Positions 25,553 through 30,022 of a stretch of DNA of 33,835 bases are shown piece by piece. How positions within the stretch are numbered: the stretch's first letter is position 1; each line of letters starts with the position of its first letter. The stretch comes from Desulfobacterota bacterium AH_259_B03_O07. GTDB taxonomy: Bacteria > Desulfobacterota_D > UBA1144 > Nemesobacterales > CSP1-2. Where the stretch lies: positions 1-33,835 of the forward strand of contig JALLOG010000024.1 in the NCBI GenBank assembly GCA_027717645.1. The letters are read 5' to 3'. Both the position numbers and the translations under genes were made by a program. The notes below the pieces were generated by a model that had not been told where the DNA came from, did not search any database, and was given only the letters and a program-made list of their open reading frames with translations.

Positions 25553-26397
25553 TTACTCTTTTCCCTTTGTAGTTAGAGCCCTTAATTTAAGCTTTGTAGC
25601 TTCTGTTTCAACCTGTGGAATTTGTGAATAACCATTATGGCTCAAAGAATTTCGAACCCGCTTTAAAAGGTTTTTCCTGCTTATATTACCACCTGCATCA
25701 CGCATATGTTTACAAAAATAAAACGAAAATGCACCGTTATAATCACCATTAATGTAAGCATCGGCAGATGTCTGATCAGATCTACATCCAGCCCAAAGAA
25801 TGTGATGAACAGTGCTCCTATTCTTGGAACGGAATCCTCTTGTGGGCTTCAATTCATCTTCCTCACCCTCTACTCGAGATTCAATATCTACAGGTGGGGG
25901 CAGAAATCTTACTAACGTGGGATTCTCGGGACCCAATTCCGGTGGACGTCCCAGATTAACATTTCTTAACCCAGTACCTGAATGACAGGAATCAAGGAAA
26001 ACTTCTAACAAAACATTTTTGGGAAGCTTCTTAAAAACTGAATTAAGATTGTCATCTGTTATGTAAGCACCATCCCAATTCATATCATAAGGACAAATTA
26101 ATTCATCCATATTGTCCCTAAGCTCGTCTCCATCCCTGTCACGAATCTGAGAACCATGCCCCGAAAAGTGAAATACAAGGAGTCTCCTGGTTTCGCTTTC
26201 TTAACCATCCATTTCAGCCTGTAGAGTATGTTTTCCTTAGTAGCCCTATCGTCAACCAAAACACGTATATCTTTATTAGTGAAACCAAGATATGTTTTCA
26301 ATATATTCCTCATATTCGTAACGTCATTCAAACAACCCCGAAGATCACTTATACCCTTATAATCATTTATACCTACCAATAATGCCCTTTGAGCCAT
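25553..26397 (-). pseudogene. Caspase family (C14) peptidase split by a 1-nt frameshift at about 26171
   Basis: ORF 26098..26397 MAQRALLVGINDYKGISDLRGCLNDVTNMRNIL... and ORF 25553..26110 ...LEVFLDSCHSGTG...HHILWAGCRSDQTSADA. A -1 shift near 26171 restores FHFSGHGSQIRDRDGDELRDNMDELICPYD, with catalytic HG and DSCHSG. Confidence 0.85.
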
Positions 26398-26555: not shown

Positions 26556-26951
26556 TTATGACTTATCAGGAAATAGTATAAGGTTTTTGCCCAGAGTTAG
26601 CATTGGAAAGTGAGTCATGTTTCGTGTAACTAAGATAAGGCCCTCTTGAACCGCTGTAGCTCCGATCAAAGCATCTTCCAGATGCAAAATCAAACCTCTT
26701 TTACGGAACCCATACACATATTTCCCTGCAAGATCAGCAATGGAGGTGTAAACAGCAATGGACTCGAAGCGGTTGACGAGGCTTGTAGTTGCAGCTACCT
26801 CATGTGGATGGCATCCCGCGAATACCTCAGTGCGACTCAGGACTGAGATGGAAGGCAGAGCTTCTTGAACCAATCTTTCTAGAAACTCCCAGTAAGAATT
26901 AGTGCCCCTAAGCAGACCGATTAAGAAATTTGAATCTAAAAGATATTTCAA
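26556..26951 (-). CDS. vapC: PIN-domain VapC-like toxin
   Basis: MKYLLDSNFLIGLLRG, SVLSRTEVFAG, ALIGATAVQEGLILVTRNMTHF. Confidence 0.9.
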   Translation of the reverse strand: MKYLLDSNFLIGLLRGTNSYWEFLERLVQEALPSISVLSRTEVFAGCHPHEVAATTSLVNRFESIAVYTSIADLAGKYVYGFRKRGLILHLEDALIGATAVQEGLILVTRNMTHFPMLTLGKNLILFPDKS

Positions 26952-27196
26952 CCTGTTATCCGACTCTTAGCCGGCCGATAATTGCCAAAATCCTCTGGTG
27001 TGAGAAGGTCTGGATGATCTTTTTCTTTCCAAGCAGTATTACGGCGCAGCTTTTTTAAATCCTTAGCCATGCCTCTCCTATCCAGTTCACGCCTTAGGGC
27101 CTCGGCCACCAATAGGCTTCGTTTCCCGGCTGGCACCTTTTCCAGCCTTCTCAACAGCTGCTCAGGAATGGTAAAAGTTGCCTTTTCAACAGCCAT
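26948..27196 (-). CDS. vapB: VapB-like antitoxin
   Basis: ATFTIPEQLLRRLEKVPAGKRSLLVAEALRREL (RHH-like), overlaps vapC start by 4 nt; MAVEKA start at 27196 behind gggggat. Confidence 0.82.
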   Translation of the reverse strand: MAVEKATFTIPEQLLRRLEKVPAGKRSLLVAEALRRELDRRGMAKDLKKLRRNTAWKEKDHPDLLTPEDFGNYRPAKSRITG

Positions 27197-27220
27197 TTTT
27201 ATCCCCCACAAATTTGTTAG

Positions 27221-27796: not shown

Positions 27797-28063
27797 CTAA
27801 CTATGACGTTCCAAGGTTACTGATATTTCGGTCTCTGCAACTTGAGGGTCAGCCTCAAGCACGGGCAAATTATTGACATCAATTGTGCCGATTATTTTAT
27901 TCTTAATAGTTTTCTCGATTGAAAGACCTAGCGCTCGAAACCGTTCAAGACTCGCCTGATCGGGGGCTGAGATATTAAGCGCTACAAGAACCTTAACAAT
28001 TCCTTTTTTTTCAATCTGTCCTAAATTCGATCTCCTAAGAATGTCTTTGAGGTTACTAGGCAT
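27797..28063 (-). CDS. Small protein resembling a stand-alone subtilase prodomain / I9-like inhibitor
   Basis: VKVLVALNISAPDQASLERFRALGLSIEKTIKNKIIGTIDVNNLPVLEADPQVAETEIS has the pattern of S8 propeptides; ATG at 28063 overlaps the protease TGA (TGATG). Confidence 0.6.
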   Translation of the reverse strand: MPSNLKDILRRSNLGQIEKKGIVKVLVALNISAPDQASLERFRALGLSIEKTIKNKIIGTIDVNNLPVLEADPQVAETEISVTLERHS

Positions 28064-29949
28064 CACGGTTCTATAGTCAGCAATCTTTCAACATTAAGCT
28101 TACCATAGCCCCATCTTGGATTCCAACAAGGAGTCGTGAAACCATCTTGTCTGGTCGACTTAATCAACCGACGCTTTGCCTCCGCCCAATCAATAGAAGG
28201 GGCCTTTTCGAGAAGAAGAGCCAACACTCCGGTGGTATATGGAGCGGACATACTAGTGCCCTGCAAGGCAACGTATTCCATATTCTTCAATCGCAACCAA
28301 GAAGGCATTTCTTCGAGCGAGGCATCGTCAGATAGAGCTGACACTAACCACTGCCCGGGTGCAGCCACATCTGGCTTATTATGACTATCACGGGTAGGCC
28401 CTGGACTACTAAAATATGAAATGTCTTCAAGATTAATTGCATCAAGACTAGCGGGTAAATCATCATCGTGAGAGTCCCAACTATTCCGTGTAGCATATGA
28501 GGCAACCGTAATTGCAGAAAATGCGGTCCCCGGCATACCTACCAAGTGGGATCTGGTATGAGCATTTGTGAATCGGCCCATTGCTCGTTGTACGATCCAA
28601 GCGTGAACAGAACCTACCTCGACACCATTTTTACCTTCTGTCCTGTCCTCCTCAGCTATTACACTCCAACCAGTAAGCCATTGTATCTCGGGAACACTGA
28701 TGATTAAAAACGTAGTGGTATTATCACCGCTGTAAATAGCTCGCTGATGACTGCTCTGGACCAGGAAAACTCCACGATCAATTTCCATTTCTCCGTCCTG
28801 AGGCGGTTCAAATAGCTCCCCATTCGGACTCCGCAGTCTGATATTTATATCATCCTCTTTCTGATGCCAGACCTGTACAAACAACAAGCCCACCATACTA
28901 CCTTGAACCATCCTTGAATTAAGTTCAAAGTCAGCAACCCAGCGTGCTGGTGAGGGCTCATCCTTGAGCATAACAGTACTTGCATGCATTTGTGAACCAC
29001 CCTCGTTACCCGCGGACACTACGACTATTCGACCACTATCTGATAGTTGATCAATGGTCCGCTCGGTAATGCTGCTGCCATCATGACCTCCGAAGTGCCC
29101 ACCCAGGCTGAGGTTAACCACGCATGGCTGATCGCGCTGATCCGCAATATTGAATATATGTGCTACACCAGCAGTAATATCTGCCGAGTCAAAAGTCGTT
29201 TTTACAATTGCAATATCCGCTTCAGGAGCCACGCCCTCGAACCTATTGTTGGGCGATCCCCGCCCATTGCCCACAGCAATTCCCGCAACATGCGTACCAT
29301 GACCTATCTCATCCGGTGATTCCGCGGCATGGCCCACATTTATTTGCGCCTCATCATACTGTTTATCACCCACCTGATCAAAGTAGTTCACAATTCTGGT
29401 TTTATTACCCGTCTTGAATGCTAGATGGGATGCATCGATACCTGTATCTACAATCCCAACGAGAACGCCATTACCTAGCTGGGATACCGCGCGATTCCCC
29501 GCCCTCACTAGTCCTGTAGAAACGTGAGCTAAGTCACAGTGAGGTTCAAGCCTGGTACTGGCTTCTACGTAGTTTACCGAAGAAAGGGAGGCGAGGTCGC
29601 TGAGTCGTGATCTAGGGGTATGAACTAACATAGTCGATTGGGTAATCATCTTAGTTTTGCCTTTCCAACTCTTTACGTGTTTTTCGACATCCTGAATCTT
29701 ACTCGCGTCAACTAGAACTGTTACTAGATCTCGGTTAACTAAATTCCTAACAGCTGTTGGCGATATCTGTGCTGCAAGCGACTGCATACCAACTGGGAGA
29801 TCTGTTATTGAGGGGGATTTTACTCCTACCCCACTCAAAGCAGTTTCTGGAGTGGTTTTCAGTGTGCGTAAGCTGGCTTTTAAAGCTCGCTTCGTTTCTC
29901 TTTCTGCATGTTTCGCCACTAGAACAAGCAAAGGATCAAGTCTAGACAA
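28063..29949 (-). CDS. Subtilisin-like S8 family serine protease, no signal peptide
   Basis: Asp GVLVGIVDTGIDASH, His DEIGHGTHVAGIAVGNG, Ser ALQGTSMSAPYTTGVLALLLE; TTG start at 29949. Confidence 0.95.
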   Translation of the reverse strand: MSRLDPLLVLVAKHAERETKRALKASLRTLKTTPETALSGVGVKSPSITDLPVGMQSLAAQISPTAVRNLVNRDLVTVLVDASKIQDVEKHVKSWKGKTKMITQSTMLVHTPRSRLSDLASLSSVNYVEASTRLEPHCDLAHVSTGLVRAGNRAVSQLGNGVLVGIVDTGIDASHLAFKTGNKTRIVNYFDQVGDKQYDEAQINVGHAAESPDEIGHGTHVAGIAVGNGRGSPNNRFEGVAPEADIAIVKTTFDSADITAGVAHIFNIADQRDQPCVVNLSLGGHFGGHDGSSITERTIDQLSDSGRIVVVSAGNEGGSQMHASTVMLKDEPSPARWVADFELNSRMVQGSMVGLLFVQVWHQKEDDINIRLRSPNGELFEPPQDGEMEIDRGVFLVQSSHQRAIYSGDNTTTFLIISVPEIQWLTGWSVIAEEDRTEGKNGVEVGSVHAWIVQRAMGRFTNAHTRSHLVGMPGTAFSAITVASYATRNSWDSHDDDLPASLDAINLEDISYFSSPGPTRDSHNKPDVAAPGQWLVSALSDDASLEEMPSWLRLKNMEYVALQGTSMSAPYTTGVLALLLEKAPSIDWAEAKRRLIKSTRQDGFTTPCWNPRWGYGKLNVERLLTIEP

Positions 29950-30022
29950 ATACTTTAGGTCCTTTCACTCTCCTTGCTTTCCTCGCTCCGCTCTTTGCTT
30001 TTGTCTTCTTTTTAGTTGCCAT
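29942..30022 (-). CDS. 26-aa highly basic micro-ORF overlapping the S8 protease start
   Basis: ATG 30022 to TAG 29942: MATKKKTKAKSGARKARRVKGPKVFV; preceded by ggaggtaagtc; 11 of 26 residues K/R, no acidic residues. Confidence 0.6.
   Translation of the reverse strand: MATKKKTKAKSGARKARRVKGPKVFV

Follow-up and report, generated by a model that had tools for sequence, protein, structure and literature searches.

What does a small gene encode whose start codon overlaps the stop codon of an intracellular subtilase, and how is its product related to the prodomain that this protease itself carries? Intracellular subtilases must be stopped from digesting their own cell, and to our knowledge their control outside Bacillus is largely unknown. 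The two genes lie in a stretch of 33,835 nucleotides (hereafter the window) at the start of contig JALLOG010000024.1 of Desulfobacterota bacterium AH_259_B03_O07. A preliminary description of this stretch had read the small protein as a duplicated, detached, prodomain-like inhibitor/chaperone that forms a toxin-antitoxin-like pair with the protease. Below, cis denotes the prodomain of the protease itself and trans the separately encoded protein.

The protease gene and its junction with the small gene

The protease (Table 1) has an intact triad (D168, H217 and S566, with N315 as the oxyanion residue) that is conserved in an alignment with 27 relatives. It is without a signal peptide, in keeping with the intracellular location first assigned to it. 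Among PDB sequences it matches CspB best, and Foldseek places its AF2 model (pTM 0.85) closest to the Csp germination (pseudo)proteases 9pr9, 6mw4 and 4i0w, ranks 1-11 all being CspA, CspB or CspC at E-values of about 1e-33 to 1e-36. The layout is likewise of the Csp type, with an S8 triad, an insert between the catalytic blocks and an N-terminal prodomain; the curated NCBIfam cut-off for CspBA/CspC is missed (98 bits vs 1250). The N-terminal sequence lacks the LIPY/F motif and has an I9-like prodomain in its place.

Both genes and the TGATG coupling of the preliminary description were confirmed by direct reading, as were the peptides it quoted. On the coding strand the junction reads ...GAACCGTGATGCC..., the TGA stop (28065-28063) and the ATG (28063-28061) having one base in common. 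Since a GTG start at 28066 is possible besides the ATG, the small protein has either 88 or 89 residues. Upstream of the protease, a short, very basic reading frame preceded by a strong Shine-Dalgarno sequence (AAAGGAGGT) overlaps the TTG start of the protease with its 3' end, and is possibly a leader or a third coupled gene. Promoter and terminator scans gave signals no more than those in shuffled sequences.

Table 1. Features of the protease/small-gene locus (window positions)
Feature	Position	Strand	Evidence
S8 subtilase, Csp-type, 628 aa, TTG start	28063..29949	minus	PF00082, E 9.8e-42
Cis prodomain of the protease	29548..29727	minus	AF2 elements; weak CspB_prodomain match
GTGATG at the junction, where protease stop and small-gene start overlap; translational coupling	28061..28066	minus	read directly
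Free-standing prodomain-like protein, 88 aa (ATG) or 89 aa (GTG)	27797..28066	minus	leave-one-out profile match, profile-profile match, AF2, Foldseek
End of last strand and C-terminal tail of the small protein (S-V-T-L-E-R-H-S)	27800..27823	minus	gapless alignment to cis tail
Possible leader ORF, 26 aa, very basic (MATKKKTKAKSGARKARRVKGPKVFV)	29942..30022	minus	sequence

Relationship of the small protein to the cis prodomain

Compared directly, the two I9-like segments of the window show no detectable similarity (BLASTP best E 2.5; hhalign of the two single sequences 0.14%), and the case for the window pair therefore rests on profiles. A profile built from 22 other protease-adjacent small proteins, the window protein being excluded, scores the latter at 25 bits, as against at most 11 bits for 1000 shuffled copies, and ranks it first among the ORFs of the window (E 1.7e-7); second comes the N-terminal part of the protease itself (E 0.008). 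The trans and cis prodomain profiles match each other over 87 aligned columns (hhalign 98.4%, E 1e-14), and still do at 98.5% once the window sequences are left out, while the reversed profile gives 0.6% and none of 100 column shuffles exceeds 0.38%. When built from cis prodomains alone, again with the window left out, a profile finds the small protein with 17 bits and an E-value of 0.0017 in a set of 8071 ORFs, among which it recovers nearly all trans proteins. When the PDB is searched with the trans profile, subtilisin-type propeptides rank first. The "same layout" formerly claimed for the small protein and the N-terminal segment of the protease is thus absent in pairwise comparison but well above chance by profiles.

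Curated families reach less far. The small protein has no Pfam, NCBIfam or PADLOC match, and the suggested HMM comparison with Inhibitor_I9 (PF05922 / MEROPS I9) fell short of the Pfam gathering cut-off, four of its 22 relatives matching that family weakly (best E 0.069). The window cis prodomain stays below the cut-off of CspB_prodomain (PF18425; 13.9 bits vs 25), a family matched at E 1e-6 by the cis prodomain of one relative.

The AF2 model of the small protein shows the propeptide topology (E22-29 H36-44 E48-53 E56-62 H66-70 E75-81) with a core pLDDT of 84-88; the N-terminal 20 residues are poorly predicted. The protease, too, is predicted to carry a complete prodomain (E75-82 H85-94 E98-101 E106-112 H113-120 E125-130, mostly at pLDDT 87-94). 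Propeptides of subtilisin, Tk-subtilisin and furin dominate the best ranks among the Foldseek matches listed for the small protein, with a probability of 1.00 and E-values of 6.6e-3 and up. Such modest E-values are to be expected for only 88 residues, and the evidence lies in the consistency of the matches. Structure prediction of the small protein alone, one of the checks proposed at the outset, thus returned the I9-type propeptide fold, and Foldseek agrees.

Could the resemblance be fortuitous, the small protein being an unrelated ferredoxin-like protein or a spurious ORF? The nil pairwise similarity and the lack of any Pfam, NCBIfam or PADLOC match would fit such a reading, which we nevertheless find scarcely credible in view of a leave-one-out match far above shuffles, the outcome of the profile controls, and the purifying selection that acts on the small gene in relatives (dN/dS 0.17-0.32). 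The trans protein and the cis prodomain share ancestry and, by prediction, fold, and the protease and the small gene are coupled. The idea that a prodomain-like protein has been detached and is encoded in trans is accordingly upheld by the profile-profile match, the predicted fold, the PDB matches in fold and sequence, and the recurrence of the partnership (see below).

In the tree, the small protein of the window forms a long branch, and trans sequences group with one another more than expected. One ancient origin of all trans forms is compatible with the data (p-AU 0.46), and for both reasons we discarded repeated recent duplication from the prodomain of each protease. The word "duplicated" is therefore apt in the sense of deep common ancestry with the cis prodomain, but not in that of a recent copy from the window protease.

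Distribution, co-inheritance and compartment

Scanning GTDB genomes with an alignment of seven proteases yielded 80 related subtilase loci, 24 of which have a small relative near the protease in the DNA fetched. Four plasmid loci (Embleya, Rhizobium, Agrobacterium and Sphingobium) add to these, with the small gene directly downstream of related proteases. Mostly the small gene lies just downstream on the same strand; it is upstream in four loci (L021, L022, L039, L053) and 2-3 kb off in some. The pair was seen, among others, in cyanobacteria, actinobacteria, proteobacteria, Bacteroidetes, Deinococcota, KSB1, Planctomycetota and Aquificales, so that the two-gene pairing recurs over at least eight bacterial phyla. 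The remaining 56 of the 80 loci show no trans gene within the DNA fetched, and this type of protease can thus often manage without an adjacent one. No pair turned up in other genomes of the window's own phylum, so nothing close supports that of the window, and a single-sequence search for relatives of the small protein in that phylum and in plasmids gave none.

The distribution in 194 cyanobacterial genomes is telling: the free protein occurs in 9 of the 10 protease-positive genomes and in none of the other 184 (Fisher p 1e-14, the genomes not being independent). In two genomes (G060 and G159) protease and trans gene are far apart, and in a third (G076) they lie on separate contigs, so that linkage alone does not explain the retention of the trans gene. 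A few cyanobacteria have a second pair, of the other subtype (L110, L111). Where the protease is exported (L021, L022, L085), its trans partner carries a lipoprotein-like signal (p 3e-4), which is lacking in the trans proteins of intracellular proteases. A signal peptide on the protease is also associated with trans presence at p 0.01, a value that depends on a crude hydropathy threshold with one false positive (L053) and on loci that are not independent. By sequence and prediction, then, the partnership is recurrent, co-inherited and matched in compartment.

Some loci depart from the simple pair. Locus L021 has a cluster in which two genes for exported subtilases alternate with two for trans prodomain-like proteins, and contig C224 of a KSB1 genome (G059) has two more free prodomain-like genes (L109, L113) in fetched DNA that is without an S8 gene. 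A different type of cyanobacterial plasmid subtilase is followed by a PrcB-family protein (L017:4953-5348), to which an ORF in Nostoc (L015, 4801-5232) is similar.

Extra copies such as those in the KSB1 genome, with no S8 gene in view, and the existence of unlinked copies would suit a trans protein that does not target its neighbour and has become a signalling part, or regulates or serves as adaptor for another protease; set against the near-strict co-occurrence with the protease, the covariation of the tails (see below) and the matching of compartments, this seems quite improbable to us.

The C-terminal tail and the proposed mechanism

In subtilisin complexes, the residues past the last propeptide strand enter the active-site cleft. 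The small protein stops about seven residues past its last strand, and its tail aligns without gaps to that of the window cis prodomain (S-T-R-L-E-P-H-C). According to the joint alignment, the free proteins extend 6-11 residues past this strand in 17 of 28 loci and further elsewhere, and they match the cis tail in register, with no gaps. Several relatives have tails of 14-20 residues, which is more than a simple product-like tail needs and counts against the docking proposed below. Trans and cis tails of the same locus resemble each other more than those of mismatched pairs do (permutation p about 5e-5, 15 non-redundant loci), which shows a long partnership rather than contact, since common descent would also give it.

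We think it likely that the product of the small gene is a free-standing prodomain of the I9/CspB-prodomain type and that its target is the adjacent intracellular Csp-type subtilase. The trans protein would dock on the protease face used by the cis prodomain, its tail occupying the S4-S1 cleft as a cleavage product that stays bound would do, and would keep the cytoplasmic enzyme blocked after cleavage or release of the cis prodomain. For proteolysis to begin, the free inhibitor would have to be outpaced, degraded or removed by some signal. In the consulted portions of the CspB study (PMC3567191), supplying the prodomain in trans restores folding and prevents labelling of the active site; the prodomain blocks this site via its last three residues, and removal of the last 3-4 opens it. 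By analogy the trans protein would act as the CspB prodomain does in trans, chiefly as an inhibitor because a cis prodomain is already present, and it may also aid the folding of the protease. More tentatively, though as a serious possibility, such pairs might be widespread two-component switches in which the cis prodomain folds the Csp-type subtilase and the trans prodomain blocks it until a signal arrives, with a lipoprotein inhibitor in the exported version.

The balance of the two activities might also be the reverse, the free protein being chiefly an external folding chaperone like Aeromonas ORF2, needed by the subtilase for its native state and inhibiting it transiently. Gene order is that of asp/orf2 (PMC5638518) and vvsA/vvsB, the CspB prodomain chaperones in trans (in the same portions of its study), and translational coupling would deliver the trans protein at once. 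Unlike ASP, however, these proteases retain a complete cis prodomain (AF2, alignment) that should do the folding job, and many homologues have no trans gene next to them, so that we consider a chief role as chaperone unlikely.

Comparison with known systems

Fungi, yeast, plants and apicomplexans are known to have stand-alone propeptide mimics (PMC6993865). POIA1, yeast IB2, SPI-1, TgMIC5 and Plasmodium SUB1-ProM (MEROPS I9; PMC6993865) are likewise small separate proteins of propeptide fold, and SUB1-ProM is also encoded beside subtilase genes, as the small protein of the window is. These are eukaryotic, whereas the present family is bacterial, is often operon-coupled, occurs in many phyla and has no family name. 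The nearest solved structures to the window protease are those of CspB, CspA and CspC of Clostridium (4i0w, 6mw4, 9pr8). CspB retains its prodomain, which works in trans in experiments; unlike the window pair, a natural free-standing prodomain gene is not described for it in the portions of PMC3567191 consulted.

The Aeromonas ASP/ORF2 and Vibrio VvsA/VvsB systems (PMC5638518, PMC11272048) are also subtilase operons with a downstream external chaperone/inhibitor, and the C-terminus of ORF2 has been shown to enter the active site. ASP, however, is secreted and has no propeptide, whereas the window protease has a complete predicted one, and ORF2 is absent from the sequence matches of the trans profile and from the 50 fold matches listed. 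The Bacillus intracellular subtilisin with IPI/BsuPI likewise combines an intracellular subtilase with an endogenous protein inhibitor (PMC3901451, PMC6220982). IPI has an Ig-like fold (PMC3901451), unlike the propeptide fold predicted here, and the ISPs have a short LIPY propeptide where the window protease has an I9 domain.

Our literature search, with few subscription journals in its scope, found no description of a bacterial family of gene-coupled free prodomains, and the family looks undescribed. Its existence suggests that bacteria, too, have propeptide inhibitors of the free-standing kind known mostly from work on eukaryotes, here as coupled gene pairs, and the pairing points to a little-described mode of restraining protein-cutting enzymes. 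Control by a further prodomain that has its own gene and is inherited along with the protease over phyla would be a directly testable mechanism, and many hypothetical proteins beside S8 peptidases would gain a function.

Neighbouring genes

A constant third gene was not found in the neighbourhood of the pair, the CHAT, PLD, C14-NACHT, glgC and pentapeptide neighbours differing by lineage. We rejected the IetAS anti-phage system as an identification of the locus: IetS is matched at 38 bits (PADLOC) and at 27 bits vs a cut-off of 900 (NCBIfam), and no AAA gene was recognised among the neighbours examined.

The toxin-antitoxin-like pair of the preliminary description, an addiction or defence module made of a harmful protease and a labile antidote, would agree with the overlapping genes, the small size of the partner and the intracellular protease, and caspase-type proteins lie near the pair in the window, in L010 (CHAT) and in L043 (C14-NACHT). 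These caspase-like neighbours are suggestive of a conflict-system setting; they are few and inconsistent. Against it stand the complete prodomain of the protease itself, the occasional unlinked small gene, and the stable chromosomal setting, close to a glgC-like gene, in which the pair is often found in cyanobacteria. The PADLOC subtilase/IetS matches are weak, and an AAA ATPase partner was not seen beside the pair. On these grounds we regard a module of this kind as very improbable and have dropped that part of the earlier reading.

Three neighbouring loci deserve mention in their own right. On the minus strand of the window, a caspase-domain (C14) gene at 25553-26397 is split over two frames near the catalytic-histidine region, and is either a pseudogene or an assembly error. 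At 26556-27211, also on the minus strand, a PIN-domain protein and an overlapping upstream 87-aa gene form a VapBC-like pair by layout. In a planctomycete, the gene next after the protease/prodomain pair encodes a C14-NACHT-FGE-sulfatase protein (L043:7820-11086).
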